DNA from: an uncultured Desulfatiglans sp.
GTDB lineage: Bacteria; Desulfobacterota; DSM-4660; Desulfatiglandales; Desulfatiglandaceae
Length of the DNA: 64,000 nucleotides
Assembly: GCA_900498135.1 (NCBI GenBank)
Contig: LR026961.1
Coordinates: forward strand, 4,251,552-4,315,551
Direction of reading: 5' to 3'
Part shown: positions 2,930-59,938 of the stretch, piece by piece
Numbering within the stretch: the first letter of the stretch is position 1
Layout of the letters: every line of letters starts with the position of its first letter
Notes under the pieces: generated by a model
What the model was told of the DNA's origin: nothing
Databases searched by the model: none
The model's input: the letters and a program-made list of their open reading frames with translations, nothing else
Translations under genes and position numbers: made by a program

Positions 2930-2937
2930 GTATTAAC

Positions 2938-2985
2938 TGGCGGGAGCGACGAGGATCGAACTCGCGACCTCCGGCGTGACAGGCC
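2938..2985 (-). other. att site: 3' fragment of tRNA-Asp(GTC)
   Basis: On the minus strand this 48-bp piece holds the anticodon loop CTGTCAC, the 3' anticodon arm, the variable region, the T-arm (GTTCGATCC) and the acceptor end CGCTCCC-G-CCA. The 5' anticodon strand keeps only three pairing bases (GGC) before matching stops at 2985. The D-arm and 5' acceptor strand are missing. Tyrosine integrases commonly use tRNA 3' ends as attB. Integration rebuilds the tRNA at one end and leaves a displaced 3' fragment at the other. The integrase lies 190 bp inside, so this is the integrase-proximal junction. Confidence 0.85.
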
Positions 2986-3177: not shown

Positions 3178-4323
3178 ATGCCTGACAACCTCCAAAAAAC
3201 GAGACACGAAGGAACCTACGCCCGAGAATCCGCCAAAAAAAGATTCAAAGGCAAACCAGACCGCTGCTACTACATCACCTACCGAAACAAGCAACAAAAA
3301 TTCGTCAGAGAAAAAATAGGGTGGGCCTCAGAAGGATACACCCCCCAGATGGCCCACCAGATCAGGGCAGAGAGAATCCGGGCCATGAGGCACGGACAGG
3401 AACTCCCGCCCGACACATGGAAAACCGTCAGGACCCTCGACAGCGCCTGGGAAAAAGAATACCAACAAGAAAAGGGGCAGAAAAAGAGCTTCAGCGACGA
3501 CGAATACAGATACAACAAACATATAGCTCCAACACTCGGGGACCGCCTCCTCTCAGGCATCACGCCCCAAGACCTCAAGAAACTCGGAACAGATCTCAAC
3601 AAAAAAGGGTTATCCCCCCAATCCATCTACCATGTCCTTCAGCTAATCAGATCCATTTATAACGTCGCCAAGAACGAAGGAGCTTACTTCGGAGAGAATC
3701 CAGCCACAAAAATCAAGTTCCCCAGAATAACAAACAGCAACCGCCTCAGATACCTCACCCAGGCAGAATCAGACCGGCTCCTGGCAAAAATCAAGGAATC
3801 CAGCCAAACAATGTACGAAATCAGCTACATAAGCCTCTACACCGGCCTCAGAGCCAACGAAATCTTCTCCTTGAAGTGGCAGGACATAGACCTCGAACAG
3901 GGTATCATTAACGTCCTCGAAACCAAGAACACAGAGCCCAGGCCGGCTTATATGAACGAAGGAATCAGGGAAATCTTTGAGAACAAGAAAAAAGGGAATA
4001 AGACTGAGTATGTTTTTCCGCAGGAGCAGCGAAGAGACAAGAACAAGCCTAAAAAGAACCGGAAAAAGGAGGAAGTCAGCAAGACATTCTTCAGAGTCGT
4101 AGAGAAAATGGGGTTGAACGACGGCGTGGAAGACAGGCGGTACCGAGTGTGTTTTCACACCCTCCGCCATACATTCGGAAGCTGGCTCGCCATAAGAGGA
4201 GAGAGCCTGCAGACCATCCAGGAGCTGATGGGGCATAAACGGATTAGCCAGACGCAGAGATACGCCCACCTATGCCCGAACAAGAAACGCCAGGCAGTGG
4301 AAAACCTGGTAGGCCCAGAATAA
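3178..4323 (+). CDS. int: Tyrosine recombinase / integrase
   Basis: A 381-aa phage-type integrase. It has an N-terminal arm-binding region (about 1-60), a SAM-like core-binding domain (about 75-175, ending in LIRSIYNVAKNEG) and a catalytic domain. Catalytic residues seen are the Arg in YTGLRANEIFSLKW, HTLRH, GHKRISQT and the Tyr of QRYAHL. The gene starts 190 bp from the tRNA-Asp fragment and reads away from it, as in many genomic islands. Codons are A-rich and C-rich compared with the defence genes. It should catalyse integration and excision at tRNA-Asp, perhaps with the excisionase-like protein at 4753-4959. Confidence 0.95.
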   Translation: MPDNLQKTRHEGTYARESAKKRFKGKPDRCYYITYRNKQQKFVREKIGWASEGYTPQMAHQIRAERIRAMRHGQELPPDTWKTVRTLDSAWEKEYQQEKGQKKSFSDDEYRYNKHIAPTLGDRLLSGITPQDLKKLGTDLNKKGLSPQSIYHVLQLIRSIYNVAKNEGAYFGENPATKIKFPRITNSNRLRYLTQAESDRLLAKIKESSQTMYEISYISLYTGLRANEIFSLKWQDIDLEQGIINVLETKNTEPRPAYMNEGIREIFENKKKGNKTEYVFPQEQRRDKNKPKKNRKKEEVSKTFFRVVEKMGLNDGVEDRRYRVCFHTLRHTFGSWLAIRGESLQTIQELMGHKRISQTQRYAHLCPNKKRQAVENLVGPE

Positions 4324-12397: not shown

Positions 12398-12760
12398 TTA
12401 GCGGGGATTATAGGATAGGAAAGAATAAGATCGATTAGAATAAGATAAGAAATAAGGGAAATAGTATACACGTAGGGGCATCTTCGAGTACACACGTTCT
12501 TTTGTATTGATTCCCCTGTTATAGTTTTGTCTTCCTACCAGTGCATAGTACTCTATGCAGGCCCCGAGCTCCAGGAGATAGAAATCAGCATACCATAGGC
12601 GAGGCTTGTCATCGTCGGAGTTGATCAGGACCCCCAGTTCGTAGTGGTAACTGATTGAAGTGTACTCCAGAAAATTGGCTATTCGGCGTTCTCCTTCGGA
12701 TTTGAAGTTAGGGTCTTTATGGTTTCCGATCATGTCTTCAAGATTTCGGATCGAGCCCAT
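12398..12760 (-). CDS. Small PD-(D/E)XK-like nuclease, putative
   Basis: About 120 aa from the ATG at 12760 (MGSIRNLEDMIGN); an in-frame ATG at 12796 is also possible. The pattern GERRIANFLEYTSISYHYEL, then WYADFYLLELGACIEYYALV, then NYNRGINTKERVY matches the compact nuclease fold of Vsr-like and helicase-linked proteins (E, then DFYL, then an IEY strand). The expected Lys of ExK is Tyr here, so activity is uncertain. The C-terminal 25 residues are Tyr/Ser-rich and may be frameshifted. It stands alone, convergent with its neighbour. Confidence 0.45.
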   Translation of the reverse strand: MGSIRNLEDMIGNHKDPNFKSEGERRIANFLEYTSISYHYELGVLINSDDDKPRLWYADFYLLELGACIEYYALVGRQNYNRGINTKERVYSKMPLRVYYFPYFLSYSNRSYSFLSYNPR

Positions 12761-12796
12761 CGTAGGCCTTATGAAGAAAGGGAGATATTTAAACAT

Positions 12797-18010: not shown

Positions 18011-18442
18011 ATGAAAACCCGGCCCAGAACGCCAATATCAGCCAAAATCGAGATGAACAAGGACAAGATCTACAGAATATCGGACCCGGTCCAACTATCA
18101 GAAATCTTTTTCCCTTCAAAAAACGCCCGCCAAAGAAGAGCTGCCTTCCTGGCCATAATCTTCGAAATCAAGAATGCCAGGGATCAGAAACTGAGCACCA
18201 CGGACCACATTGCAAATAAATATAGCCTCAGCCAGTCATCCATCGTAAAGGCCAGGACAAAAATGACCCGGATAGGATTGATCAGAAAAAGGGATGGGTA
18301 CTGGATGTTCAGTACCGTTTTTAGCAAGAGTTTGGAAATCCTAGTCCAGAAGGTAACCACCTATAAGGTTCAAAAGCAAAATAGTGAGGCAAGTGCCAGG
18401 GAAAAGTTGTTTGTGGCGATGGCGAAAGGAGCGAAAAATTAA
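18011..18442 (+). CDS. Winged-helix DNA-binding protein
   Basis: A 143-aa protein, SD GAGGTGAT before the ATG. Residues about 40-105 form an HTH with wing: RAAFLAIIFEIKNARDQKLS, then HIANKYSLSQSSIVKARTKM, then GLIRKRDGYWMFS. This looks like a transcriptional regulator or a small replication initiator. It is monocistronic and lies just before the BREX-like operon. Confidence 0.55.
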   Translation: MKTRPRTPISAKIEMNKDKIYRISDPVQLSEIFFPSKNARQRRAAFLAIIFEIKNARDQKLSTTDHIANKYSLSQSSIVKARTKMTRIGLIRKRDGYWMFSTVFSKSLEILVQKVTTYKVQKQNSEASAREKLFVAMAKGAKN

Positions 18443-20589: not shown

Positions 20590-20591
20590 CC

Positions 20592-23174: not shown

Positions 23175-23177
23175 GTC

Positions 23178-27515: not shown

Positions 27516-27526
27516 GAGGGGAGTCG

Positions 27527-32778: not shown

Positions 32779-32841
32779 GTTATTCCGGCGGAAGCCGGAA
32801 TCCAGGCTGTTTCTGGATGCAGGATCGAGTCCGACATGACC
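32779..32841. repeat. Palindromic REP-like repeat
   Basis: ATTCCGGCGGAAGCCGGAAT followed by CCAGG, a spacer, CTGGATGCAGGATCGAGTCC and GACATGAC. This is the layout of the dispersed inverted repeats found in many deltaproteobacterial genomes. The coding-looking frame that crosses it (before the ATG at 32874) is therefore not part of the CD-NTase. Confidence 0.6.
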
Positions 32842-32873
32842 AAAATGTCGTTTGTATTACGAGACAGTTAATA

Positions 32874-33749
32874 ATGGGCGTAGCAGATTGGTTCAGTACT
32901 TTTTGTTTCAACATCCAAGTCAAGGATGGAGGCACGATCGCAAGCCGGTACAAGGCCATAACTCGCCGCCTCAACACTGACTTCTGGAATACTACATCCG
33001 ATACATCACATAGCCTATATGTCGGATCATACGGCAGAAATACGGCAATACAAGGCTTCAGCGACCTAGACATGGTTTTTGAATTGCCTTCGAGTCTCTA
33101 TTATCAATACGATCAATACCACGGAAATGGCCAGTCAGCGCTCCTTCAATCGGTACGTAATTCGATGCAAAAGACGTATTCGACTTCGAGTATTGGAGCT
33201 GACGGACAAGTTGTTGTTGTCAGCTTCAAGGACGGAATCACCTTTGAGGTCGTTCCCGTTTTTACCAACAAAGCTGGAAGCTATACCTACCCAGACTCGA
33301 CCGCGGGAGGTAGATGGAAAATAACGAACCCAAAGCCTGAGATAGAAGCTATTCGTACCAGGAACAGCGCCTGTAACGGCAACTTAGTGCCTCTTTGTAG
33401 AATGATGCGCTCCTGGAAACGAAAATGGAGCGTCCTTATTGGGGGTCTTCTCGTTGACACGCTCGCATACCAATTTATAGCTGGATGGGAAAATAAAGAT
33501 AAGTCATTTCTCTATTACGATTTCATGTGCCGTGATTTTCTTGAATGGATGGCAACTCAGAGTTCAGGGCAGGAATATTGGAAGGCACCCGGCAGTGGCC
33601 AATACGTCTATGGCAAAGGGCTTTTCCAATACAAGGCGAGGCGTTGCTACAATATCAGCTTGGACGCCATTAATTATGAGCTGGAGAACAAGGAATGGTC
33701 AGCCAAGCAGAAATGGAGAGAGATTTTTGGAAAAACATTCCCAGACTGA
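32874..33749 (+). CDS. CD-NTase (SMODS) of a CBASS system
   Basis: 291 aa from the ATG at 32874 (MGVADWFSTFC). The longer frame upstream runs through a REP-like repeat. Polymerase-beta-type nucleotidyltransferase motif: YVGSYGRNTAIQGFSDLDMV (GS and DxD, about residues 48-67). The third Asp/Glu site is in GITFEVVPVF. CD-NTases make cyclic oligonucleotide alarm signals on phage infection. The partner effector gene overlaps its end. No cap genes are present, as in minimal CBASS. Confidence 0.85.
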   Translation: MGVADWFSTFCFNIQVKDGGTIASRYKAITRRLNTDFWNTTSDTSHSLYVGSYGRNTAIQGFSDLDMVFELPSSLYYQYDQYHGNGQSALLQSVRNSMQKTYSTSSIGADGQVVVVSFKDGITFEVVPVFTNKAGSYTYPDSTAGGRWKITNPKPEIEAIRTRNSACNGNLVPLCRMMRSWKRKWSVLIGGLLVDTLAYQFIAGWENKDKSFLYYDFMCRDFLEWMATQSSGQEYWKAPGSGQYVYGKGLFQYKARRCYNISLDAINYELENKEWSAKQKWREIFGKTFPD

Positions 33750-34308
33750 CAGCCCTCTCGATGTCAGACGCGTTCTCGAAGCCCAATTACGCGAGTGCTT
33801 TGGCAGGGTTATTTACTCTCATAAGACTCACGAGAAATGCACCGACATCCTCCTTACCCAATTGTCTACCATCAAGCTTTCGCAGATCATTCTATCGGCG
33901 ATTACCACTGGTGGATTTATAGCCGCTGTGTTCGGAGCTGGTAAAGCCGGTGCTGTGGTAGGCGTAGTTGTGTCCACTCTCCTGCTCGTCTTGAACGCCT
34001 TCACCAAGAATTATGACCTTGGCGAATTGGCCCAGAAACATAAGCAAGCTGCTAATGACCTGTGGTTGATACGGGAGAGGTATCTTTCACTGATTACTGA
34101 TTTGGTCATCGGTGAGAAGCCGATGGAGAAATTGCAAGAGGACCGCGATTCGCTTCTTGAGGAACTTCACGCTGTATATTCCGGCGCTCCTAGCACAACT
34201 TTTAAGGCGTATAAGAAAGCACAAGGCGCGCTCAAAAGCTATGAGGAAATGACCTTCTCTGATGGAGAGATTGATGCTTTTCTGCCAAAAGAATTGAAAA
34301 GAGGCTAA
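33727..34308 (+). CDS. SLATT-domain membrane effector of CBASS
   Basis: About 193 aa if it starts at the TTG at 33727, 23 bp inside the CD-NTase gene; the start is uncertain. Features: VLEAQLRECFGRVIYSHKTH, then two hydrophobic helices (LSQIILSAITTGGFIAAVFG and AGAVVGVVVSTLLLVLNAF), then NYDLGELAQKHKQAANDLWL. The order of helices, membrane hairpin and AxxHK..A..LW is that of SLATT proteins, thought to form membrane pores when triggered by the CD-NTase product. Confidence 0.8.
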   Translation: MEKHSQTDSPLDVRRVLEAQLRECFGRVIYSHKTHEKCTDILLTQLSTIKLSQIILSAITTGGFIAAVFGAGKAGAVVGVVVSTLLLVLNAFTKNYDLGELAQKHKQAANDLWLIRERYLSLITDLVIGEKPMEKLQEDRDSLLEELHAVYSGAPSTTFKAYKKAQGALKSYEEMTFSDGEIDAFLPKELKRG

Positions 34309-34349: not shown

Positions 34350-34462
34350 ATGACCCTCACCAAATCCAGCTTAATCGACAAAAGCCAAACCGAAATCAGG
34401 CTCCCCAAGAGGTACCTCACAGGCCCTCGAAACCACACTGAAAACCATCAAACGAAAACTTG
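34350..34462 (+). pseudogene. 5' remnant of an HU/IHF gene
   Basis: ATGACC-CTCACCAAATCCAG and the following bases match the first 30 bases of the intact HU/IHF gene at 37719 (MTITKSNLID there, MTLTKSSLID here). After a degraded stretch, CCCTCGAAACCACACTGAAA again matches. The frame is shifted, and the second half of the gene is missing. The upstream leader (CGTACAAGGGACGAAAT) also resembles that of the intact copy. Border between the CBASS and SIR2 modules. Confidence 0.85.
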
Positions 34463-34477
34463 AAGGGAAATATAAGG

Positions 34478-37400
34478 ATGATTGAGATACCACTAGGTCT
34501 TAGGACTGCATTAGAATCCGGCGATTGTGTGCTTTTCATTGGCGCCGGGATTGGGAGGCACCTTTTTGACGAAGCTGGTAACACAACTCCTGACGGTGCG
34601 TCTCTGGCGAAAGAACTCGCTGATCACTTTGAGATTGAAACCGGCGGTTCCTATGACTTGGCAAAGATCTCGAGAGTCGTGGAAATAAGAAAGGGTCGAA
34701 CCGAGTTGATCGCCTTCTTGCACAGACGCCTGGCAAACCTTACTCCTGACGAAGACTTCCAGTGGTTGAGCACACTTAGGTGGAAGGCGATCTATACGAC
34801 AAATTATGACAATGGTATTGAGCGTGCCTACGAACTGTCATCAGACCCCCCTCAAAATCCAGTTACTTTGACTGTTACTTCTGATCTGGTATCCTACAAC
34901 CCTCACTTCGAGCTTCCAGTCTATCATCTCCACGGAGCCTTATTTTCTGCTTTTGAGCCAAGCATTGTTATTACTGAGGACGATTATGCAAGGTTTAAAG
35001 AGCGGAGAAGAATGCTCTTTGAGCTCCTCAAGAAGGATTTTGCTACCTCTCCAGTCCTTTACATCGGTTACTCAAACCGTGATCCAAACTGGAATATGGT
35101 CATTGCCGAGATAAGCTCAGAATTCTATCCATCAAAGCTTCCGCGATCATACCGGATAGCCCCAGATACAGAACCAATCGATATCGAGATACTCCGTGAG
35201 AAAAACATAGAGACGCTTAGCGCGTCATACGGGGAGTTCCGTGCGGCTGCCTCCGTTATGCTCTCGGAGCAAAAGATAGATCCTAGTATTCTGCAAAGAA
35301 TCGAACAACAGGTGCCTGTCGATCTAATGCCTGCATTTTCAAAAAGCCCCGCAGCACTCGTTAGACTTCTTACCTCTTGGACTTACGTGAACCAGGCCCC
35401 CTTTCATGAGAATCCAAACGTCTATAGTTTTCTTAGAGGAAATGAGGCGAACTGGGCTTTGATAGGCCGTAAACACTATTTTCAGAGGGATATTGAAGAA
35501 GAAGTCTATGAGGATTTATTAGACTATGCCACAGGCACGAGAGAGATACCCCGTATGAGAATCGTCCTTGGGCCGGCAGGGTACGGGGTCACGACTCTAT
35601 TAAAGATCTTAGCAGTGAAGCTAGTCAAAGAAAAAGCAGGCCCAGTATTTATGCTCAAAACAGGAAGGGCCTTTTCAGAAGGGGACATCGAATTCGCGGT
35701 TTCGCTATTTCCTAATACACGGCCTTTCTTCATAATTAATAATGCATCTGACCATGTTTCACGGATAACCGATATCTTTCATCAACTTAAGGAGGCACAT
35801 AAGAATTCGCTGTTTCTCCTCGGAGAGAAATTGAATGAATGGCGACAAGCTCACGGCAGGCTTAACCCAAAAGAATATCAACTAGAATCTCTGAGTGATC
35901 CTGAAATTAACCGTCTGATAGACTGCCTCGACCAACACTCCGAACTTGGAGTCCTGGAACCACTGAGCAGGGAACTCCAATTTGCAGCTATCCGACAAAA
36001 GCATGGTAAAGAACTATTGGTCGCAATGCGGGAAGCCACAGAAGGGAGGAGCTTCGACGCGATACTAGAGAGCGAATATCGTGGAATCAATAACAATACA
36101 GCCCGTCGTCTCTATTTGTCCGTATGTTGCTTTCACCAGCACGGTGCCCTTGTTCGTGACTCACTCTTGGCCGATCTTATGGAGACCTCGCTTTCAGAGC
36201 TCTATAATGAGACACGCGATGCAACCGAAGGAGTAGTTATCTATGATTGTCTTGATGAAGTGACTGGGACGTTCGTCGCAAGGTCACGCCACAGGACTAT
36301 CGCAACGGTTGTGTGGGAGAGATGCGGATATCCGGATGAGAAGGAGCATCTAATACAGGGAGCTTTATCTACTCTAAATCTTAACTATAAGACAGATAGA
36401 GATTCGCTCGAATATTTTATTCGTTCAGACCATCTTATAGATAGCATCCGAACTTTAGAGGGAAGAATAAGATTCTTTGAGACTGCCTGCAAAAAGGACC
36501 CTGAAAGCCCCTACGTTAGGCAGCATTTTGCAAGAATGCTATTACGTTCAGGCAGATTTGAGTTGGCGTTGAACCAAATAGATGAGGCTCTCATTCTCAA
36601 TCCAAATGGGTTGGTATTGCATCATACTAAAGGGATTATCCTTATGCATCTTGCCCTTTCGATTGAAAGCCATGAAATTGCGAGGCGGAGACTTGCCCAA
36701 AGCGAGTCGAGCTTTCGGAGATCTCTAAGTATCTATCCAAAGCATGAATATAGCTATCAGGGTCTTGCCCAACTTTACCTTGGTTGGGCAAAGAAGGCTC
36801 CCACTGAAGAAGAGTCTACCGAGTACGTTTCAAAAGCGGAGGAAACAATTAGCGAGGGTCTCAGGACGGTCCGCGTGCGTGACGGACTTTGGATTGAATC
36901 CGCAAATATCCAACGATGGCTAGGTGACGAGCCATCCCGGTTAAGCGCACTCGAAAAAGCAGTAGAAAGCCATCCTGGCAGTATCGTTGCAAGGTACTTG
37001 CTCGGAAGAAGTTACCGAAGAAGCGGTTCCCCTGAGAAGACGCTCAAGGTGCTTGAACCGGTGATAAAAGACCACCCTGATGAATTTCGATCGTTCGTAG
37101 AGTATGCAAATGCCCTAATATATCTGAAAAGACCATTCAAAGAAGCGATAGCTGTTTTGAGATTGAGTACACTTTATGGGTTCGGTGACCCCCGTTTTAT
37201 AGCCACATTGGGTGGGCTGCTCTTCTTAGAAAGGGAATTCACTGAAGCGAATTCTGTTTTCAATGAATCGGCAAAGCGAAACTTTTCTGGTCGGGAACTG
37301 AATAGCGTGCAATTTTGTCCTCCAAATCCTGATAATCTTAGCGCAGACATTCGTGTCGTCGGCACCGTCATAACAGTGAAAGCTGGATATGCCATCGTTG

Positions 37401-37540
37401 AGACTGGTATATATCCCAGACTGATATGCCCAGGATCAAAATTCGGCGGAGTGATAATGAGACAAGGCCTGAAGGCGTCTTTCAGACTGGCATTCAGCGC
37501 AAAAGGACCTGTTTTGGATAGACCCATATTGGAGGTTTAG
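34478..37540 (+). CDS. SIR2-STAND-TPR defence protein
   Basis: About 1020 aa from the ATG at 34478. Residues 1-270 are a SIR2-like NAD-binding domain (LFIGAGIGR, then IYTTNYDNGIERA, then VYHLHGAL, then VLYIGYSNRDPNW). Next comes a STAND-like P-loop region whose Walker A is GPAGYGVTTLLK, with Val where Lys is expected, and whose Walker B is FFIINNASD. TPR-like repeats (about 640-930) and a small OB-like C-terminus (VVGTVITVKAGYAIVETG) follow. SIR2 defence proteins deplete NAD when triggered; repeats may sense phage protein. Confidence 0.8.
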   Translation: MIEIPLGLRTALESGDCVLFIGAGIGRHLFDEAGNTTPDGASLAKELADHFEIETGGSYDLAKISRVVEIRKGRTELIAFLHRRLANLTPDEDFQWLSTLRWKAIYTTNYDNGIERAYELSSDPPQNPVTLTVTSDLVSYNPHFELPVYHLHGALFSAFEPSIVITEDDYARFKERRRMLFELLKKDFATSPVLYIGYSNRDPNWNMVIAEISSEFYPSKLPRSYRIAPDTEPIDIEILREKNIETLSASYGEFRAAASVMLSEQKIDPSILQRIEQQVPVDLMPAFSKSPAALVRLLTSWTYVNQAPFHENPNVYSFLRGNEANWALIGRKHYFQRDIEEEVYEDLLDYATGTREIPRMRIVLGPAGYGVTTLLKILAVKLVKEKAGPVFMLKTGRAFSEGDIEFAVSLFPNTRPFFIINNASDHVSRITDIFHQLKEAHKNSLFLLGEKLNEWRQAHGRLNPKEYQLESLSDPEINRLIDCLDQHSELGVLEPLSRELQFAAIRQKHGKELLVAMREATEGRSFDAILESEYRGINNNTARRLYLSVCCFHQHGALVRDSLLADLMETSLSELYNETRDATEGVVIYDCLDEVTGTFVARSRHRTIATVVWERCGYPDEKEHLIQGALSTLNLNYKTDRDSLEYFIRSDHLIDSIRTLEGRIRFFETACKKDPESPYVRQHFARMLLRSGRFELALNQIDEALILNPNGLVLHHTKGIILMHLALSIESHEIARRRLAQSESSFRRSLSIYPKHEYSYQGLAQLYLGWAKKAPTEEESTEYVSKAEETISEGLRTVRVRDGLWIESANIQRWLGDEPSRLSALEKAVESHPGSIVARYLLGRSYRRSGSPEKTLKVLEPVIKDHPDEFRSFVEYANALIYLKRPFKEAIAVLRLSTLYGFGDPRFIATLGGLLFLEREFTEANSVFNESAKRNFSGRELNSVQFCPPNPDNLSADIRVVGTVITVKAGYAIVETGIYPRLICPGSKFGGVIMRQGLKASFRLAFSAKGPVLDRPILEV

Positions 37541-40099: not shown

Positions 40100-40661
40100 A
40101 TTCAAGACCGCGCCGGTGATCTGTGGAAAGCGCTTGAATTGCCTGGATCGCGGACTCGAAAACCAGGGGACTTTTTCCGCATACGTTTAGCTTGAGAGAT
40201 CCGCGATCTTTGGACGGGTTCATAACGTCTCATGACCGTCTGTCATTTGCCTAATGGAAACAGTGCGTCTTTGAAATATTCCGATAAATCCGTGTCGATT
40301 CACTAGAAGAGGTCTCGGTTATCTTACTTGATACCTGGCTTCAATCGATGTCATTCGAAGTAGGTGGGGAGATTTCCGATGGAAACCTGATTTCTGGAAT
40401 GTGAGGCCTTCGATTCCCTTAGGACTCACCACTCTGGAGGAGCAACCTTTATGAATCTTTTTCTTTAACTGTCTGTATATATTATATATATTGTTTTCAA
40501 TATAGAAAATAAATAAGAAAGAAAAAAAGACACCTGAAAAAAGAAGGAGCTGAATTCCATCGGAAATTTACCCACCTACCTGGGCGCCCCTCCTTTCAAG
40601 TGGTAAAAAACCATTAAATACCCCCAATATTTCCTTTGAAGGTAAGCTTAGAAAATTTCCA
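40100..40661. promoter_or_regulatory. Putative replication origin with ORB-like inverted boxes
   Basis: GTAGGTGGGGAGATTTCCGA (40360 on, ending TGGAAACC at 40387) and its inverted partner at 40555-40579 match at 23 of 25 positions. Each holds a TTTCC-gat-GGAA dyad next to a G-rich run, the plan of archaeal origin recognition boxes. Between them lies a very AT-rich tract (about 40478-40530). A third partial box, TGTCCGATGGAAACC (40672-40686), overlaps the orc1 start. The part before 40360 shows no gene. Confidence 0.65.
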
Positions 40662-41915
40662 ATGCAGAAAATGTCCGATGGAAACCAACCCGGTCAGGAT
40701 AGCACTGAAAAACTGATTGAATCCCTCCACGCCTCAAGGAAGAAGCGGGCCCTTATCATAAATCCTGATTACCTGGATGATGAAAATCTCCCGGAGGATG
40801 AAAGGACAGCCGTCCTCAAGGAAATATTCAACAGAAATATCCGGGAAAAGCAACTCAGTAGAATCATATCCCATATCACACCTGTCCTTGACGGTTCCCA
40901 CCCGCCGTCGGCATTGGTATACGGCCCGACGGGCTCCGGAAAGACCGTCACACTCATACATGTCCTATCAACATTCACCCAGGTAGCCGAAAAACATGGG
41001 GTCAGCTTCCATTACCGTTATATTGATCTCACCTCACCCAAGACCTATTTCGGGGCGCTGAATGAAGTCGCAATTGCCATTGACAGTTCAAACAGGAAAT
41101 ACCGGAAGGGAATCCCTGTTGAGTACATGCAGACCAGAATAATAGAGGGGATAGCCAGATATAAGGGTTTCGTGACGCTTCTGATTGACGAGGCCGACAA
41201 CATTCTCCCCAACCCCGATGCCCTGCTCACATTTCTTGCGAAAACCCTTCCAAGAAAAATTTCCTGCCGACTCATCCTCATACTACTCACCAACAGGCTG
41301 GACTGGGAGAAAACCCTCGATCCAAGAATCCTGAGTTTTCTCAAGAAAACGGACATTATCTTTGAACCCTACGATGCCCTTGATCTACTGGAGATCCTGA
41401 AACTGAGAGCTGAAAAGTCCCTTCACAGCGAAAAAGTAAGCCACGCCGCACTCAGGAAGGTAGCCGCCTATGCATCACGGGAGACGGGTGATGCCAGAAA
41501 GGCCGTGGAATTGATGGCCAAGGCCGTAAAGGTCGCAGAAGAAACAACCGGATACTTGGGCGAGAAAGAGGTGGACATTGCCGAGAGCCGCCTCGAAGTG
41601 GATAAAACCTCAGAGATGATTAATGCCTTGGCCACCCAACAGCGTTTTGCCCTTCAGGCCTGTTACAGCCTGTTCAGGAAAGGGGCCAAGAAGGTTTCCA
41701 CCGGGCAGACTTATGAAGTATACAAAGGTATCTGCAGCAGCGAGGGGTGCCGCCCGCTGACCCAACGCCGCTTCTGTGACATCATCAGTTTCCTCGATCT
41801 CTACGGCCTGATCAATGCCCGCGTTGTCTCCATGGGACGCTACGGCAAGACCAGAGAGATAATGAGCTCGTTGCCGGATCAGGTCAAACAATCCCTCTGC
41901 AAGTCTATTCATTGA
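40662..41915 (+). CDS. Archaeal-type Orc1/Cdc6 replication initiator
   Basis: A 417-aa AAA+ protein. Walker A is VYGPTGSGKTVTLI (about residues 85-98), Walker B is TLLIDEADNI, sensor 1 is LILLTNRLDW and sensor 2 is ETGDARKAVELMAKAVKVAE. The C-terminal winged helix reads YEVYKGICSSEGCRPLTQRR, then FLDLYGLINARVVSMGRYGK and TREI, exactly the layout of archaeal Orc1/Cdc6 proteins. ORB-like boxes lie just upstream. The start may be the ATG at 40662 or 40671. Very unusual beside a DnaN clamp gene. Confidence 0.88.
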   Translation: MQKMSDGNQPGQDSTEKLIESLHASRKKRALIINPDYLDDENLPEDERTAVLKEIFNRNIREKQLSRIISHITPVLDGSHPPSALVYGPTGSGKTVTLIHVLSTFTQVAEKHGVSFHYRYIDLTSPKTYFGALNEVAIAIDSSNRKYRKGIPVEYMQTRIIEGIARYKGFVTLLIDEADNILPNPDALLTFLAKTLPRKISCRLILILLTNRLDWEKTLDPRILSFLKKTDIIFEPYDALDLLEILKLRAEKSLHSEKVSHAALRKVAAYASRETGDARKAVELMAKAVKVAEETTGYLGEKEVDIAESRLEVDKTSEMINALATQQRFALQACYSLFRKGAKKVSTGQTYEVYKGICSSEGCRPLTQRRFCDIISFLDLYGLINARVVSMGRYGKTREIMSSLPDQVKQSLCKSIH

Positions 41916-42002: not shown

Positions 42003-42380
42003 ATGGAAAAATGGAAAACCATAGAACCAGGTGTGTGGAAACCCATAAAAGCAGGAGATTATATCATAGGCATCCTTGTGAACAAGGAGCCTAAGGATGA
42101 GACATCCGGACTGAGCGCAAGGTATTACCTTGAGAACGACGAAGGAATGTTCTTTGTCTGGGGTTGCGCAGTCCTTGATGACCGGATGCAGTATGCAAAG
42201 GTCGGAGGCAAGGTGAGGATCACCTACGAAGGGGTGACAGCCAACAAACGAAACCAAAAGGTGAACCTATACAGGGTGGACGTTGCAGAGACCCGGCAGT
42301 CAGAGCAATCCTCCGGGGCTGCTGATATCAAAGACGAAGATGAAGCCGTGGAACTTGAAAAGATAGAAGATGCGGTTTGA
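42003..42380 (+). CDS. OB-fold-like single-strand DNA-binding protein, putative
   Basis: A 125-aa protein with a beta-barrel-like pattern (AGDYIIGILVNKEPKDE, then ARYYLENDEGMFFVWGCAVL, then VGGKVRITYEGVTANKRNQK, then NLYRVDV) and an acidic C-terminal tail (DEDEAVELEKIEDAV). That matches SSB-like proteins. SD GGAGG. It follows the Orc1 gene, consistent with a role in replication. Confidence 0.6.
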   Translation: MEKWKTIEPGVWKPIKAGDYIIGILVNKEPKDETSGLSARYYLENDEGMFFVWGCAVLDDRMQYAKVGGKVRITYEGVTANKRNQKVNLYRVDVAETRQSEQSSGAADIKDEDEAVELEKIEDAV

Positions 42381-42819: not shown

Positions 42820-43237
42820 AAATGAACATAGATAGGACCGATTTTCTTAAGGCCCTTTTTAACGCCTCAGCGGGAAATATATTCTGGAGAATGGAAAAAT
42901 TTATAAACTTAAAGGTATTACCATTCTTGAGGAGTGAAAATGATCGATCAAAAGGAAGCCAACTATTATCAAAACTATATCCCTAGCACCCAAGGTGCCA
43001 AGATCAGGATACTTCCAGCTGTGCAGTACCTCCCCTCCCCCCACTCGCCGGGGAAAAACACGTATTCAATGGCAGAGACCTTCATGGGGACTATCAGTGA
43101 TTCTCAAAATAAAGGCTATCTTGACGACTTTTTTAACCAGAAAAAAGAACTTTCGTTAGCGATCACAGGGGGTGCATTTTTCCCTGGCGTCCGAAGCTAA
43201 ATTTTGGTAGGGTGCTTTGCCAGGAGGGAACAGCACC

Positions 43238-44113
43238 TTGGCAGAGACCCTGTATCAAATTCGTGGCCGTCAAATCAGAGAGGAAGACCTCTCGGTTATC
43301 CGCGATACCATCTCCCGGCATTGGGAACGCGGTCGAACCGCCATTTCCCGAGTGCTGTGTGAGCACTGGGACTGGCGGCAGCCGAACGGGCAACTCAAAG
43401 GGATGGCCTGCCGTGCGCTGCTGCTCAAGCTCCAAGAAAAGCAGGTTGTTAATCTCCCCCCGCCTTTGTCCACAACGAATCATCGGAAGCCCCGCAAGGC
43501 TGTTCGACGCAGCTATAACTACGACACCTCGGAGATTCACGGAACGGTCTCCGAGTTTGGCTCTTTGAAAATCGAGATGGTCCGGCGCACCCCGGATGAA
43601 GGCCTGTGGGATCACCTGGTCGATAAGTACCATTACCTGGGGCGCCCCCGAATCGTCGGTGCATACTTGAAGTACCTGGCCTACCTGGATGGACACCTGG
43701 TGGCTTGCCTCGGTTGGGGCTCAGCGGCCTGGAAGGTGGAGTGCCGCGACCGGTTCATCGGTTGGGAGCCCCGTACCAGGGAAGCGAACCTCTACAAGGT
43801 CGTCAATAACGTCCGGTTCCTGATTCCGGGCTGGGTTTCGGTGGAACACTTGGCCTCGAAGCTTCTGAGCGCCAACATCCGGATGCTTCCCGGGGACTGG
43901 CAGGCGTTTTACCGCCATCCCGTTGCCTTGCTCGAAACCTTCGTGGACACCACCCGGTTCCAGGGCACCTGCTACCGGGCAGCCAACTGGGTCTATGCAG
44001 GACTGACCAAGGGGCGTGGACGCTACGACCGCTATAACCGCTGCATGGAACCGGTCAAGGCGGTCTACCTCTACCCGCTTGGCAAGCGTTTCCGGGAGGC
44101 GCTCCATGCCTGA
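43238..44113 (+). CDS. DUF4338 (DruA-like) protein of the IS66-type element
   Basis: About 291 aa from a TTG nine bases after GGAGGG. An in-frame TTG at 43217 is also possible. It shows the full DUF4338 pattern: YHYLGRPRIVGAYLKYLAYL, then LGWGSAAWKVECRDRFIGW, then NVRFLIPGWVSVEHLASKLL, then LLETFVDTTRFQGTCYRAAN, then KGRGRYDR and KAVYLYPL. DUF4338 is also the DruA subunit of the Druantia defence system. Here it lies inside the ends of an insertion element and overlaps the transposase gene, so it is probably part of the transposition machinery. Confidence 0.85.
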   Translation: MAETLYQIRGRQIREEDLSVIRDTISRHWERGRTAISRVLCEHWDWRQPNGQLKGMACRALLLKLQEKQVVNLPPPLSTTNHRKPRKAVRRSYNYDTSEIHGTVSEFGSLKIEMVRRTPDEGLWDHLVDKYHYLGRPRIVGAYLKYLAYLDGHLVACLGWGSAAWKVECRDRFIGWEPRTREANLYKVVNNVRFLIPGWVSVEHLASKLLSANIRMLPGDWQAFYRHPVALLETFVDTTRFQGTCYRAANWVYAGLTKGRGRYDRYNRCMEPVKAVYLYPLGKRFREALHA

Positions 44114-45506
44114 AACGCCTCTTTTTCCCGAAGGCATCGCCTTGACCGAAGAGGGGCTGCAGGATGTGCCGCGCTCCGTGCTCATCCAGATCATCCTCGC
44201 CCTTGTGGAGGAAAACCGCGAACTCCGAAAACGGATCGAACAACTCGAAGCGCGTCTGAACAAGGATTCCTCCAACTCGGATCGGCCGCCGTCCTCGGAT
44301 CCGCCCTTCAAAAAGAAAAAATCCGGTAAGAAAAAGAAAGGCACCGATCGACGGAAACTGAGCCATCCGGGGCACCGGCAGGAGATGCTCCCGCCGAAGG
44401 AAACCCGAGTCATCCTTCCGGAAATCTGCACCTGCGGCAACCGCGAGTTCCCCGAAACCGAACCGTATTATACGCACCAAGTCATCGAACTGCCGCCGAT
44501 CGAACTCGAGGTCATCCACTTCGAGCTACACCGAGGCAGGTGCCCGGTCTGCGGCAAGATGCAAAAGGCCACCGTCCCCAGGGAACATCGGACAGGCTAC
44601 GGTCCCAGGCTTTCAGCCATGATCGCCGAGATGGCGGGCACCCAGGCAGACAGCCGGTCAACGATTCAAACCTTCTGCGCTTCGGTGCTTGGGTTCCATA
44701 TCAGCCTGAGCGCCATCCAGAAGATCATCGTTCGGGCTTGTGCCGCGATCCAACCCCACTATGAAACGATCGGCCAGGCAGCCAGGCAGGCGCCGGTCAA
44801 CCACATCGACGAGACCAGCCATCGCCTCAACGGCCTCCTGCAATGGCTGTGGGTCATGGCGGGGCCGGCAGTGGCTTTCTTCATGATCCATTCCAACCGC
44901 TCGAAGGAAGCCTTCGAAGCATTGATCAAGGACTGGACCGGCATCCTGGTCTCGGACGGATACGGCGTGTACCGCAAATGGGTCGGACTGCGGCAGACCT
45001 GCCTTGCTCATCTGATCCGCAAGGCCAAGGAACTCTCCGAAAGGAAAGACCCGGACATAAAACGGTTCGGTCTGTGGGCAACCCATGAACTCCAACGACT
45101 ATGTCATATGGCCAAGGATCCCCCCTCCGTCGGAGAGTGGCAGGCCTTTTATGCTCGTTTGATCCGCTTGATCACCCTTCATGAGAAGCGCAAGGATGAT
45201 GCCGGCAGATTTGCACGCCGTCTTCGCAGGGAGATCGAAAGCCTTTGGACGTTCCTCTCGGAGCAGGGGGTGGATCCCACGAACAATCATGCTGAGCGGA
45301 TGCTTCGATTCGCCGTGCTGTGGCGCAAATCCAGCCAGGGTACGTCCAGTGAAAAAGGCAATCGTTGGGTGGAGCGTATCCTCTCACTCAAGCAGACCTG
45401 CCGCCTGCAGAAAAAAACAACCTTCCCCGTCCTTGTCGATGCCCTGCACGCCTACTTCCGGGGTCAGGAACCCGACCTCGCCTGGATCGCTCAGCCCACC
45501 GCCTGA
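44106..45506 (+). CDS. IS66-family transposase (TnpC-like)
   Basis: 466 aa from the ATG at 44106. A coiled N-terminus (ALVEENRELRKRIEQLEARL) and SSNSDRPPSSDP are typical of IS66. A zinc ribbon (CTCGNREF ... CPVCGKMQ) follows. DDE residues are in NHIDETSHRLNG, VSDGYGVYRKW and NNHAERMLRFAV. Start overlaps the stop of the DUF4338 gene. Intact. Confidence 0.93.
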   Translation: MPETPLFPEGIALTEEGLQDVPRSVLIQIILALVEENRELRKRIEQLEARLNKDSSNSDRPPSSDPPFKKKKSGKKKKGTDRRKLSHPGHRQEMLPPKETRVILPEICTCGNREFPETEPYYTHQVIELPPIELEVIHFELHRGRCPVCGKMQKATVPREHRTGYGPRLSAMIAEMAGTQADSRSTIQTFCASVLGFHISLSAIQKIIVRACAAIQPHYETIGQAARQAPVNHIDETSHRLNGLLQWLWVMAGPAVAFFMIHSNRSKEAFEALIKDWTGILVSDGYGVYRKWVGLRQTCLAHLIRKAKELSERKDPDIKRFGLWATHELQRLCHMAKDPPSVGEWQAFYARLIRLITLHEKRKDDAGRFARRLRREIESLWTFLSEQGVDPTNNHAERMLRFAVLWRKSSQGTSSEKGNRWVERILSLKQTCRLQKKTTFPVLVDALHAYFRGQEPDLAWIAQPTA

Positions 45507-45889
45507 TCCAGATCCTGTGATCGCTTACGAACTTTCAGAGGACAGGGTGAGCCTTATCCTGGGAGAGATCCACGGTCGTGAGACGTTAAAACATGACAAC
45601 CTCGCCAGACTTTATGACGATCTCCTGAAAGTAAGAAACTGGCGACTGGAAAGACCATTCCCCGAATATTACCAAAAAGACAGAATATGGTCAGACCTCA
45701 ATCGCATGGAGATTCAGATCAGGGAACAGATCAGGCGTGAGCTCAAAGATGCCGCCCGTGATACATCCTTCCCCCAGAAAGACCTCCGGGAATCTCTAAT
45801 TGACTTCAAGCTTCAAAGTCAAAAGGCCCAGATGATGGAAGGGGGACTGGAAATGAGTCTGGAAGACTCCGATCAAACCGATAAAGGTG

Positions 45890-46684
45890 ATGCCTATCAC
45901 CATAAAAACCACCAAACTCCATTCTTCTACTGAAGGCCCAAAAAGACCGAAAAAAAGATGGCTCTCCCCATCGTCCATAAACGCCTACCTCAGATGCCCC
46001 AGAAGCTACTATTACAGCAGGATCGCAAAACTGAAACAGAAACCGAGTGTCTATCTCATCAGGGGCATCGCCGTCCATTCCGCAATCCAAAAGTTTTACA
46101 CACACAAGATCCATCGCTGCATAAACATGGACTACAGTGAAATCCGAAGGATCGTTATCGAGCTTTTAAAGGACGAATGGAAGAACCAGAAAAGCGACAT
46201 CCTTGAACTCGACCTCAAAGAAGACGAGATCGCGTTTTATTTCGAGGAAAGCAGGAAGATGATGCTCAATTTTCTGCACGACTTCCTCGATGACGGGGGA
46301 TTCGAAAAGCCGGAACCCATAATTGAGAAAACCCTTTTCTCCAGAAAACAGTTGCTCCTTGGACGGATCGATGCCATCTACAACAACCGTGACCCTCCCC
46401 TCCTGGTGGACTTCAAGACCTGCAAATCAAAAGAACTCATCGACGATTACAAGCGACAACTCGGCATCTACGCCCTTCTCTACAAAGAGAACTACAACAT
46501 CATCCCCACCATTGGGATCCATTTCCTCAAGTTCAGACACGGCCTCGAAGAGTTCAAAATGACAGAAAGATACATAAATAAAATCAGGGACCTTATCCGG
46601 GATATCCATTCAAAAACCCGGTCAGAACGGATCACCGATTACCCATGCACATGCGGATGGTGCAAGAAGAATTTCAAGATCTGA
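45890..46684 (+). CDS. Cas4/RecB-like PD-(D/E)XK nuclease
   Basis: About 264 aa from the ATG at 45890. WLSPSSINAYLRCPRSYYYS at the N-terminus carries the first Cys. LLGRIDAIYN and LLVDFKTCKSKE are the catalytic D and DxK motifs, QLGIYALLYK is the QxxxY motif, and CTCGWCKKNF supplies the last cysteines. This is the iron-sulphur RecB-nuclease type of Cas4 and AddB. No CRISPR genes are nearby. Next to HerA it suggests end processing of DNA, as in the HerA-NurA pair. It overlaps the interrupted gene. Confidence 0.85.
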   Translation: MPITIKTTKLHSSTEGPKRPKKRWLSPSSINAYLRCPRSYYYSRIAKLKQKPSVYLIRGIAVHSAIQKFYTHKIHRCINMDYSEIRRIVIELLKDEWKNQKSDILELDLKEDEIAFYFEESRKMMLNFLHDFLDDGGFEKPEPIIEKTLFSRKQLLLGRIDAIYNNRDPPLLVDFKTCKSKELIDDYKRQLGIYALLYKENYNIIPTIGIHFLKFRHGLEEFKMTERYINKIRDLIRDIHSKTRSERITDYPCTCGWCKKNFKI

Positions 46685-46721
46685 GATTTCTGGGCAGTCA
46701 AGTTTGAAGGTGGAAAAGCAT

Positions 46722-48701
46722 ATGATCACCATCGATGAAAAGCTTAAAATCCTGCAACCGATCCTCGGCCACATCAAGACCCGACGATTAAGGCAGATGT
46801 ATTACTATGAAGATGATTTCAGGAGAAAGAGAGAGCTTGAAAACCATATCGACCTTCTCATATCCCGTTATGTGAAAAAAGATGTTGAGGACGAAATCAT
46901 ACTTCCACCACCCCAAAAAGAGCTATGCGATGGGGACCTAAATATCGGAGAGATTGAATATCTCGGGAAAAGACTTTTTCCATTTCACCTTAAACTCAAG
47001 GACATCAACCGTCACTTGGCGGTCTGCGGATCGACGGGATCAGGGAAAACAACGTTTGCCAAACACCTGATCAGGCAGCTCCACAAAAAGGGCATCCCCT
47101 TCCTTATCTTTGACTGGGAAAAAAGTTACCGGAACCTCATAAACGAGTTTGACGACATCGAGGTGCTGACCGTCGGAAGCGATATCAACCCATTGTTTCT
47201 CAATTTCCTGAACGTGCCCCCGGGCATCCGCTACGACGAATACATCAAGTCCATCATCGCTATTATATCTGAAGACTACATCGGCGGCATAGGCGCGGAC
47301 ACCATGCTCCTAAACTATATGGAGATGGCGTATCAGGAGACACAAAACCCGTTTTTCGGAGACCTCAAGGAAATCGTTCTAAGAGAAATCAACAAAGACA
47401 TGGGTAAAAGGGGAAGACTCGCCGGCAGGTCAGGGCTATGGAAAGAAAGCGTTTCCAGGCAAATCACTTTCCTTTCAAAGGGCGCCTCCGGAAACGTGGT
47501 GAACCCCAAAAGACACTACCCACTCCAAGAACTTTTCAGTAAGCCAATTGTTCTCGAATTCGGGAATCTGAAGAGTCCATATGACCGAAAATTTTTCATT
47601 CACGTCATCCTCAACTGGCTCTCCATCTACAACCAACACTGCGGCATCCAGACAGAACACCTGAAACAGGTCATGATCTTCGAAGAGTTCCATAACATTG
47701 CCATGAAAGGAAAAGAAGATAACATGATTTCAACGCTGTTTCGGGAATCAAGGAAATACGGCATCGGTCTAATCGCTATCGATCAGACTCCCTCGGAGAT
47801 CCCCAACGCCATCTTTGCCAACATGAACGTCAAGGTCTCCTTTGCCCTTGGAACCAGCAGGGATATCGCCTCGATGGGGAAGGCCATGAACCTGGACACC
47901 TACAAATCAAAATACCTGGGCATGCTCAAGACCGGCCAGGCCATGATCAATGTGAAACAGAGACATTATGATACCTTCCTTATTAAGGCCCCATTTATCA
48001 AACAGGAGGAAAATATCCGGGATGAAGAGCTGAGGGAAAAAATGAAGAAGTTCGCAGGCAGGATAAGGGTAAAAGAGCCTGACATCGAGTTTATGAGTAT
48101 CTCACAGACCCCTCAAAGATCAGAAAACATTTCCCCCTTGGAACCCCTTGAAAAAGTGCTCCTTTCAAACATCATCGAAAGGCCCCTTGATGGCGTTGAT
48201 GAAAGAACCAAGAGGCTGGGTATCCATCCCTCAACGGTTTCTGATCTCCACACATCATTGTCGCAACGAGGACTGATCAAGACCGTTAATGTGGACAAGA
48301 AGAAACTCTTCGAGCTCACGGATCAAGGAAAAGAGATGGCTGAAAAACTGGGCATCCGGATTCCGGTGAAACACACAAGAGGCGGTATAGAACACGACTA
48401 CTGGGTCCACCAGACCGCCCAATTCTTGAGAAAACACGAGTTTCAGCCGGTCTGTGAGGTAAAGGGCATTGACATCGTTGACACCCAAGCAGGAATCGCC
48501 ATCGAGATTGAGACAGGCAAATCAGATCTACTATCAAACCTCTTAAAACTCAAGAAATCTCGATATTCAAGATGTTTCATGCTGGCCACCACCAAGGCAG
48601 CTGAAATTAAAATCAAGAACCAATCAATTGACTTCCCATCCATCCAAGTCTTTTTCATAAAAGACTTCCTCAAACTCACCAGAGACCAGCTCACCCAATA
48701 G
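46722..48701 (+). CDS. HerA-type ATPase fused to winged helix and nuclease-like domain
   Basis: About 659 aa from the ATG at 46722, chosen for its AAGGTGG SD; the frame has a TTG at 46704. Walker A is VCGSTGSGKTTFAKHL (about residues 102-117), Walker B is QVMIFEEFHNIA, and GIGLIAIDQTPSEIP follows. After about residue 475 comes a winged helix (LGIHPSTVSDLHTSLSQRGL), then VKGIDIVDTQAGIAIEIETG, a PD-(D/E)XK-like core (D, then ExE). It may translocate and cut DNA together with the Cas4-like nuclease encoded upstream. Confidence 0.85.
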   Translation: MITIDEKLKILQPILGHIKTRRLRQMYYYEDDFRRKRELENHIDLLISRYVKKDVEDEIILPPPQKELCDGDLNIGEIEYLGKRLFPFHLKLKDINRHLAVCGSTGSGKTTFAKHLIRQLHKKGIPFLIFDWEKSYRNLINEFDDIEVLTVGSDINPLFLNFLNVPPGIRYDEYIKSIIAIISEDYIGGIGADTMLLNYMEMAYQETQNPFFGDLKEIVLREINKDMGKRGRLAGRSGLWKESVSRQITFLSKGASGNVVNPKRHYPLQELFSKPIVLEFGNLKSPYDRKFFIHVILNWLSIYNQHCGIQTEHLKQVMIFEEFHNIAMKGKEDNMISTLFRESRKYGIGLIAIDQTPSEIPNAIFANMNVKVSFALGTSRDIASMGKAMNLDTYKSKYLGMLKTGQAMINVKQRHYDTFLIKAPFIKQEENIRDEELREKMKKFAGRIRVKEPDIEFMSISQTPQRSENISPLEPLEKVLLSNIIERPLDGVDERTKRLGIHPSTVSDLHTSLSQRGLIKTVNVDKKKLFELTDQGKEMAEKLGIRIPVKHTRGGIEHDYWVHQTAQFLRKHEFQPVCEVKGIDIVDTQAGIAIEIETGKSDLLSNLLKLKKSRYSRCFMLATTKAAEIKIKNQSIDFPSIQVFFIKDFLKLTRDQLTQ

Positions 48702-52791: not shown

Positions 52792-53634
52792 ATGGACGCT
52801 GTGCTTAGAAAACTCCACCGCTTCTTTCGCCAAAAATGGCACCTGGCGGTTCTCCATCCGGAAAAAGGACGCTGGATCGTCCAGCCCCATCCCGACCATA
52901 TCCCTTATCTCAAGGCCCTCAACGCCTCAGGCTGCCACATCCTCCTTCAACCCCTTGAACAATCCCGCTATCTCCTGGCCGATGATCTGTCCTGGGAGAG
53001 GGTTTGCCGTCACCATCGCCAACCTGACAACACCTGGAGGCCCGGTCGCATGGTCGTCGAGACCTCCCCTCACAACTTCCAGGTCTGGATCCGTTCTGCC
53101 CACCCCTTGGATCTCCACCATAAACGCATCCTCCTCCACATGCTTCACAGCGATCCGGCTGCCGATCCCAACAACCGTTTCGGCAGGTGCCCCGGCTTCC
53201 GCAACCGCAAACCCTGCCATCGGACCCCCGACGGGCAATATCCACTCTCTCGCCTCATCTGGGTCGACTACAACTCCTCGGCCATCATCCCGCAGCATCT
53301 CTTCCAGGCAATGACTCCGTCTTCCCCTCAACCCTTTCCCCCTCCACCCCCAGGGGGGGCGGTGTGTCTTTCTTCCCCTCCATCTCGCTCCAGATATCTG
53401 CGCGCTACCGAATCCGAAACCGACTTCGCCTACGTCCTCGCCCTCCTCAGACGCGGGTACTCCGAACACGCCATCCGCTCCCTCCTCATCGAGCAACGGA
53501 CCTCCTGGGATCATCACCAGGGCGAACGGAGGAAAAATGCCTATATCAATACAACCATCGCCAAGGCCAAGACCATCATCCAAAACAAGTCTGTCCAAAT
53601 TACCCCGAAAATCACCACCAATCGTCCAGGATAA
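52792..53634 (+). CDS. RepB-primase-like protein of the transposon
   Basis: A 280-aa protein. LLADDLSWERVCRHHRQPDN, then MVVETSPHNFQVWIRS, then DPNNRFGRCPGFRNRKPCHR match the RepB-type archaeo-eukaryotic primase domain (DD, ETSP-N-QvW, and GfRNRK). A Pro-rich linker and a C-terminal helical part follow. A primase in a transposon hints at replicative transposition or a plasmid origin of the cargo. The first Asp pair (DD) is present, so it may be active. Confidence 0.7.
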   Translation: MDAVLRKLHRFFRQKWHLAVLHPEKGRWIVQPHPDHIPYLKALNASGCHILLQPLEQSRYLLADDLSWERVCRHHRQPDNTWRPGRMVVETSPHNFQVWIRSAHPLDLHHKRILLHMLHSDPAADPNNRFGRCPGFRNRKPCHRTPDGQYPLSRLIWVDYNSSAIIPQHLFQAMTPSSPQPFPPPPPGGAVCLSSPPSRSRYLRATESETDFAYVLALLRRGYSEHAIRSLLIEQRTSWDHHQGERRKNAYINTTIAKAKTIIQNKSVQITPKITTNRPG

Positions 53635-58819: not shown

Positions 58820-59938
58820 ATGAATTTCACGATTCCAAAAAATGAACTGTTCAGAATGATATCGAAATTAAAAGGAATACCGAAAAGGTCGTCCTCGATG
58901 GCTGTGCTGAGCCACCTGCATGTGATGACGGCCAAAGACGCGCTTTTCATCACGGCCACGGACCTGGAGGTGGCGGTGAGGGTGAAAACCCGGGCGGAAG
59001 TGTTCGATAAAGGAGCTGTTGCCCTGCCTGGGGACCCGTTTTTCAGGATCGTCCAGAAGATGCCGGGTGGAGATATCTCGTTCGAGGCCGGGGAAAACCA
59101 CCGGGTCAGGATAACGGGTGGCAGTGCCCGGTTCACCCTGGCGGGCTTGTCTGGAGAGGAATTTCCCGAGTTCCCCAACATCATGTTCAAGGAACGTCTC
59201 ACCATTCCCTCAAAGACACTTCAGAACATGCTTGAAAAGACCTTGTTCGCCGTGTCCAGAAACGAAGGGATGGTCAGCCTGGCCGGAGTTTTTGTGGCGA
59301 TGTGCGGAAACAACGGCAGCAACACGTTGTGCATGGTAGCGACCGATGGCCACAGGCTGGCCAAGGTCGAAACACGGTCTCATCAACAGGTGCCGGTCCT
59401 TCAGGAGGGCGTGATCATCCCCTTGAAAGGGGGCATGGAACTTCTGAGGATGGCCAGAGAAACAGATGAAGATCTCGAGTTGCAGATCGACAAAAACAAC
59501 ATCGCTGCCTCTCTGACAGATGAGACCCTCGTCATACGCCTCCTCAGCGGTCAATTTCCCGACTACCGAGCCGTCCTTGAAAATATCGATGGAGTTCCGG
59601 TCGTATCGGATCGGGAATCCTTCGGAGAATGCCTGGAGAGGATTCAAGTCATAGCTAAAAACCAAAGCAACCATACATCACTCAGCCTTACGGGAAGCGA
59701 ATTCATGGAAATAAAAGCAGCGAGCCATGACCTGGGGGACGCGGAGGACCGCATCAATGTCCAAACCGATCTTCAGGAGATATCGGTTGGATTCAATGCA
59801 GGTTATCTCCTTGAGGGCCTCAAGGTAATGAGGAGCAGGGACCTGGATATATTGCTGAAAGACTCCAAGTCGCCTGCCCTTATAACCGGCAAAGAAGACG
59901 AAGGCTTCAGCTACGTCGTGATGCCCATGAGGGCATAA
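58820..59938 (+). CDS. dnaN: DNA polymerase III beta sliding clamp
   Basis: A 372-aa protein of normal length, three clamp domains. FTIPKNELFRMISKLKGI starts domain 1. MVATDGHRLAKVE is the signature of domain 2. The C-terminus SYVVMPMRA matches the YxVMPMR tail that closes the dimer. It is intact and diverged from housekeeping clamps (short first domain). An element-borne clamp could recruit host polymerase to element origins. Confidence 0.93.
   Translation: MNFTIPKNELFRMISKLKGIPKRSSSMAVLSHLHVMTAKDALFITATDLEVAVRVKTRAEVFDKGAVALPGDPFFRIVQKMPGGDISFEAGENHRVRITGGSARFTLAGLSGEEFPEFPNIMFKERLTIPSKTLQNMLEKTLFAVSRNEGMVSLAGVFVAMCGNNGSNTLCMVATDGHRLAKVETRSHQQVPVLQEGVIIPLKGGMELLRMARETDEDLELQIDKNNIAASLTDETLVIRLLSGQFPDYRAVLENIDGVPVVSDRESFGECLERIQVIAKNQSNHTSLSLTGSEFMEIKAASHDLGDAEDRINVQTDLQEISVGFNAGYLLEGLKVMRSRDLDILLKDSKSPALITGKEDEGFSYVVMPMRA

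Follow-up and report, generated by a model that had tools for sequence, protein, structure and literature searches.

Why should a bacterial chromosome carry an intact initiator gene of the archaeal type, with what look like its own origin boxes alongside? Initiation by DnaA in Bacteria and by Orc1/Cdc6 proteins in Archaea and eukaryotes are regarded as separate, non-interchangeable systems, and origins of the Orc1/Cdc6 kind are well known in Archaea and archaeal plasmids. The question is raised by a stretch of 64,000 nucleotides (the window) from an uncultured Desulfatiglans sp., whose 4.80-Mb genome is a single contig with a bacterial 16S rRNA match. We think it probable that the locus is an archaeal initiator-origin cassette that was captured once, is spread by integrative elements, and replicates their excised form in bacteria.

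The identity of the gene itself can be settled with the greatest confidence.

40662..41915, plus strand: orc1/cdc6 initiator gene (family profiles above cut-off, relatives of solved structure, tree)

This open reading frame of 417 aa, whose conserved start is more likely the ATG at 40671 than 40662, had been read in a first-pass annotation as an archaeal-type Orc1/Cdc6 gene, and profile searches bear this out. It reaches 243.8 bits with the NCBIfam model TIGR02928 (orc1/cdc6 family replication initiation protein; curated cut-off 181.3), 84 bits with Pfam Cdc6_C (cut-off 25.1) and 44.3 bits with Cdc6_lid (cut-off 27). The closest solved structures are an Aeropyrum homologue (2v1u) and Sulfolobus Cdc6-1 (2qby_A), and much weaker structural relatives are Cdc6-3 and 1fnn, the latter the Pyrobaculum protein. 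The AAA+ motifs, GDARKA sensor 2 and archaeal winged helix recognized at first reading are each present: Walker A is GPTGSGKT, Walker B LLIDEAD and sensor-1 LTN, and the C-terminal winged helix is complete (...LTQRRF...GLINARVVSMGRYGKTREI). Alignments show that the AAA+ motifs and winged helix are intact here and kept across relatives. A generic bacterial AAA protein is excluded as the identity of this frame by the Orc1/Cdc6 cut-offs and the archaeal structural relatives; best matches to bacterial non-initiator AAA proteins, which would have spoken against the assignment, were not what the searches returned. We consider it nearly certain that the frame encodes an Orc1/Cdc6 protein in a bacterial element, and such a protein would be expected to bind ORBs and load MCM. 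Like archaeal Orc1/Cdc6 proteins (TIGR02928; Sulfolobus Cdc6-1 and the Aeropyrum homologue), it joins AAA+, lid and winged-helix domains with all motifs and a GRYGKTRE wing, and its gene adjoins its own boxes. The bacterial clade differs from them in its long branch, in a conserved N-terminal STExLIExLH, and in a host that lacks a convincing MCM.

How widespread is this gene among bacteria? When 84,980 species genomes were scanned with conserved Orc1 peptides, five bacterial loci and one archaeal locus were recovered. The bacterial loci belong to NaphS2, Desulfocarbo indianensis (two copies), a Zixiibacteriota MAG and a Desulfobacteraceae MAG (GREV), at 66-77% identity. Searching the order yielded, in addition, a more distant copy below that range in genome G450 (375 bits) and a truncated copy in G430. 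At least five further anaerobic bacteria carry the cassette in mobile or plasmid-like DNA. Because a close homologue is present in only 3 of 395 sampled genomes of the phylum, the source genome included, orc1 is not a lineage gene. Phylogeny, which had been recommended as a check, unites the seven full-length bacterial Orc1 proteins in a single clade with 100/100 support. No donor lineage is singled out by this tree, in which archaeal sampling is limited, and its simplest reading would be one transfer of orc1 from archaea to bacteria. Two scans of viral contigs yielded no viral relatives, and a phage collection gave a single weak match, to an archaeal virus. The orc1/cdc6 replicons of archaeal plasmids (e.g. 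Natronorubrum, Methanohalobium) are alike in using a plasmid-type Orc1 initiator and, in some, in having ParA nearby; the plasmid matches listed show less than 30% identity to the window protein, and none among them is a bacterial plasmid. Separately, genomes from the same phylum as the Zixiibacteriota MAG hold much more divergent Orc1/Cdc6-like genes outside the clade (L071, L072, L088 8308-9501, L076), which are possibly contamination.

If the protein is an initiator, its gene might be expected to lie beside sites that it recognizes. The region immediately upstream and at the start codon contains the following candidates.

40360..40384, plus strand: left ORB-like box, G-run outward (inverted-repeat search; box model 31.8 bits, rank 1 in 184 kb)
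40450..40530, no strand assigned: putative unwinding region, A+T-rich, with the palindrome-like TTTTCAATATAGAAAA kept in several elements
40555..40579, minus strand: right ORB-like box, inverted (inverted-repeat search; box model 30.7 bits, rank 2 in 184 kb)
40605..40620, plus strand: archaeal BRE/TATA-like element AAAAACCATTAAATA, upstream of orc1 and at the corresponding place in all copies
40671..40686, plus strand: third box, on the orc1 start codon, ATGTCCGATGGAAACC (box model 13.7 bits; place in other copies)

The 25-bp inverted boxes around an AT-rich tract, and the partial third box at the start codon, had all been proposed from inspection, and all were recovered. The two arms of 25 nt agree at 23 of 25 positions (92% complementary), stand 170 nt apart, and enclose a 60-mer of 85% A+T upstream of orc1. 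The exact TTTCCGATGGAA occurs only three times in the 4.80-Mb genome, two of these being the inverted pair and the remaining one falling within a repeat-protein coding sequence. Moreover, a box weight matrix trained exclusively on other elements and genomes, with the window excluded, ranks the pair first and second in 184 kb, where the next best site scores 14.0 bits. Taken together, these two results indicate that the boxes are not chance occurrences. Boxes scattered over the genome, the outcome that would have undermined an origin, are ruled out by the same near-uniqueness and ranking: the pair is specific to this place and is conserved with orc1 across bacteria. Indeed, the inverted pair holds ranks 1 and 2 not only in the window but also in the GREV, NaphS2, D. 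indianensis and Zixiibacteriota elements. The consensus across elements is GTGRGWGTARATTTCCNNTGGAA, and the dyad core reads TTTCCNNTGGAA in the window, TTTCCAGTGGAA in G450 and TTCCAGTGGAAA in the D. indianensis copy DCA.

Every complete copy presents the same order of box, A+T-rich tract, inverted box, TATA-like element and orc1, with the G-run boxes pointing outward around the tract. Most copies also show a clear third box at or close to the start codon; in the Zixiibacteriota copy this box is weak. Since the promoter and start codon of orc1 lie among the boxes, and since a ParA ATPase gene lies directly 3' of orc1 in G450, one might suppose that Orc1 has turned into a transcription regulator or a partition protein, and that the boxes are operators or centromere-like sites rather than an origin. 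We find this quite improbable, given that the alignments show strict conservation of the ATPase motifs, the lid and sensor 2, and that each complete copy has its boxes on either side of an A+T-rich tract, as origins do. The orc1-ParA pair of G450 has an arrangement often seen in the replication and partition genes of plasmids.

The resemblance to archaeal origins is substantial but not complete. By published criteria, such origins have two or more ORBs in inverted orientation around an A+T-rich element beside orc1 (PMC3528665), and this is the arrangement found at 40360-40579 next to the gene. The common archaeal ORB motif is TCCA[CG]T[TG]GAAA[TC][GA]AAGGGGT (PMC4164010), and the boxes of the bacterial elements possess its TCCA..GGAAA dyad. 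In those archaeal groups that have a G-string, it lies 3' of GGAAA on the same strand (PMC4164010 Table 1), whereas in all bacterial copies the run is on the opposite strand and C replaces G after GGAAA. The archaeal-origin layout claimed initially thus holds for the inverted boxes, the dyad and the A+T tract by orc1, but not for the strand of the G-run. Archaeal ORB origins (haloarchaeal, methanogen, Sulfolobus and Thermococcales) have TTTCC-NN-TGGAA inverted boxes around an A+T tract adjoining orc1, as here; besides the C-run 3' of GGAAA, the bacterial elements differ in their start-codon box and in their location in bacterial mobile DNA.

The promoter region carries a further archaeal-looking signal. 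A BRE plus TATA-like motif, roughly AAANN(N)TTTAWATA, precedes the third box by 41-44 nt in most loci; in the window and in GREV the distance is 56-59 nt. The only match to this pattern in the 68-kb window element is the one at orc1, with about one expected by chance anywhere in the element, and the notion that archaeal-type promoters are an element-wide feature was dropped on this single match. The TATA-like element may be a kept archaeal promoter or a bacterial -10 element. One could go further and propose replicons that work in both domains, with Orc1 loading a bacterial DnaB-type helicase and the BRE/TATA kept for passage through archaeal hosts, although we judge this unlikely. The ‘cross-domain replicon’ of the first-pass annotation is upheld insofar as a bacterial mobile element carries an initiator and an origin of archaeal type, and the support does not extend to replication in Archaea as well.

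What carries the cassette? Two features at the left of the window bear on this point.

2938..2985, plus strand: left attachment repeat and left element end, a 48-nt copy of the tRNA-Asp 3' end (92% identity; empty site in G184)
3178..4323, plus strand: tyrosine recombinase (integrase) just inside the left end (XerA/XerD/XerC-type NCBIfam matches, below cut-offs)

The right attachment copy lies at window coordinate 71174-71221 (locus L028), in the tRNA-Asp gene at 71174-71251, and both the NaphS2 and the D. indianensis elements contain homologues of the integrase. In the same-genus genome G184 the site is empty: sequence matching window 853-2985 (98.5%) joins directly to that matching 71128 onward (98.9%), and the two segments overlap only in the tRNA-Asp end. 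On sequence grounds, the attachment repeats, the integrase and the empty site place orc1 in a 68.2-kb integrative element that occupies the tRNA-Asp gene from window coordinate 2938 to 71221. It resembles other integrative elements at tRNA genes in its tyrosine integrase, attachment repeats, defence cargo and empty site in a relative; it differs in having an archaeal-type replicator and no recognized relaxase or mating apparatus. No relaxase or type IV secretion genes were recognized in the window copy, and the GREV element has a TrwB/TraG-like coupling protein and a Replic_Relax protein. A second (right-end) tRNA-Asp copy for the GREV element was not found in the stretch examined, nor was a second copy of the tRNA-Pro attachment site within the NaphS2 contig. 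The tRNA-Asp 3' end occurs once more (89%) near window coordinate -35084, in stretch L026 to the left of the window, which suggests a second, tandem island there.

These boundaries also bear on whether the gene belongs to the bacterium at all. Many of the related genomes are MAGs and the G430 copy is truncated, and so one might invoke contamination from archaea, an assembly error or a passenger gene in decay. However, a same-genus bacterial genome is colinear with the flanks at 97-99% identity and has an exact empty site, which leads us to reject contamination, and copies are also present in the NaphS2 and Desulfocarbo indianensis strain SCBM records. Decay is opposed by the substitution pattern. 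Synonymous sites are saturated in most Orc1 pairs (dN 0.19-0.33), and the two D. indianensis copies differ by a dN of 0.004 against a dS of 0.14, which indicates strong purifying selection on orc1. Explanations of this kind are therefore extremely improbable.

A more serious challenge comes from other replication genes in the element.

52792..53634, plus strand: RepB-type primase, next to a transposase/ATPase pair (PF16793 72 bits, PF22448 37 bits)
58820..59938, plus strand: element-borne DnaN, a bacterial sliding clamp (three Pfam beta-clamp domains)

The host has its own replication genes, two DnaA and a DnaN, near 1.37 Mb, so that the element DnaN is a second copy (host DnaN at 1373382); the two strong DnaA genes, at G000:C1:1364179 and 1375119, are 11 kb apart on opposite strands. 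No further Cdc6_C gene was found in the host genome. Early reading had put DnaN and a sigma factor beside orc1, which is loosely put: DnaN is 17 kb away, and the sigma-like frame (8813-9478, a sub-threshold region 4 match) is 31 kb away. With a primase and a clamp on board, and the element integrated, Orc1 could be an accessory for copy control or maintenance, replication being achieved through the RepB-type primase and host factors or passively in the chromosome. This reading seems to us rather unlikely, because none of the compared elements has a homologue of the primase, whose gene lies in GC-rich sequence by the transposase/ATPase pair, whereas orc1 and its boxes are common to all copies.

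Several other proteins are shared among the elements to varying degrees.

12398..12796, minus strand: small nuclease-like protein, in four element copies (40% identity to the GREV, DCA and DCB copies)
18011..18442, plus strand: 143-aa predicted winged-helix protein, with a homologue accompanying every complete orc1 copy examined
42003..42380, plus strand: 125-aa protein after orc1, in three elements (56-61% identity)
45887..46684, plus strand: PD-(D/E)XK exonuclease-like protein, kept in GREV and DCA (PF12705 71 bits; PHROG exonuclease)
46704..48701, plus strand: HerA/FtsK-like ATPase (PF01935 51 bits; 69% identity in GREV)

The winged-helix homologue accompanies orc1 in all seven full-length cases, and its AlphaFold2 model (pLDDT 67.7) shows a helix-turn-helix and wing with only generic MarR/ArsR-like fold matches. 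Structure prediction for the 125-aa protein was uninformative (pLDDT 39), and the GREV copy of the nuclease-like protein has a weak Phage_endo_I match. A 410-aa protein at L028:928-2157, with a hydrophobic N-terminal half, is kept in four of the elements and has no family assignment.

The cargo is mostly defence: a BREX-like cluster, a CBASS pair, a SIR2-STAND protein and an Mrr-type enzyme. The cluster at 18914-32603 comprises BrxL, a PglX-like methyltransferase, PglZ and, more distantly related, BrxC/BrxF-like proteins; the scores of several components fall far short of the respective BREX models, and the cluster may be an unusual BREX type. In the CBASS pair (32817-34308) a SMODS cyclase overlaps a SLATT_4 2TM effector, and the 1026-aa protein at 34460-37540, with a SIR2-like domain, STAND NTPase and TPR, is probably a defence gene. 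A DruA-like protein lies immediately 5' of an IS66-type transposase (43217-45506), and the GC-rich segment 50636-53634 encodes an rve transposase, an AAA_22 ATPase and the RepB-type primase consecutively. Among the relatives, the GREV element (L020:10404-13673) has ThiF-like and JAB-like genes, possibly a ubiquitin-like module, with homologues in the D. indianensis element (L036), which also carries ribonucleotide reductase. In G450 (L086:12120-18119), heavy-metal RND efflux-like genes, judged from protein starts only, adjoin the orc1 module.

We therefore return to the captured cassette as the favoured reading. Its support comes from the family cut-offs, the 100/100 clade, the box ranks and near-unique boxes, the element ends and empty site, and purifying selection, to which the ORB dyad and layout, the G450 ParA module, and the element clamp and primase can be added. 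Counting against it are the G-run strand, the lack of MCM, the fact that no loader or helicase partner was identified, and the passive copying of an integrated element by its host. Under the cassette hypothesis, the cassette was acquired a single time from an archaeon, and its later diversification took place in the mobile DNA of bacteria. Orc1 would attach to the inverted boxes, melt the A+T tract and start replication of the excised circle, and its binding around promoter and start codon would also control its own expression. A search for MCM in the host genome gave only weak AAA-type matches, the best of which (29 bits) is taken to be an AAA+ cross-match. Without a convincing MCM in the host, the helicase to be loaded would be a bacterial one, probably host DnaB, or one encoded by the element. 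The element DnaN and, in the window copy, the RepB-type primase might serve as replication aids.

Public annotation pipelines can already name such orc1/cdc6 genes. Even so, our literature search, which covered few subscription papers, found no report of a bacterial Orc1/Cdc6. The findings suggest that bacteria host replicons started by machinery thought to be archaeal. An intact Orc1/Cdc6 with its matching origin offers a natural test of Orc-type initiation with a bacterial helicase and polymerase, and the cassette could provide a replicator usable for vectors in sulfate-reducing bacteria.
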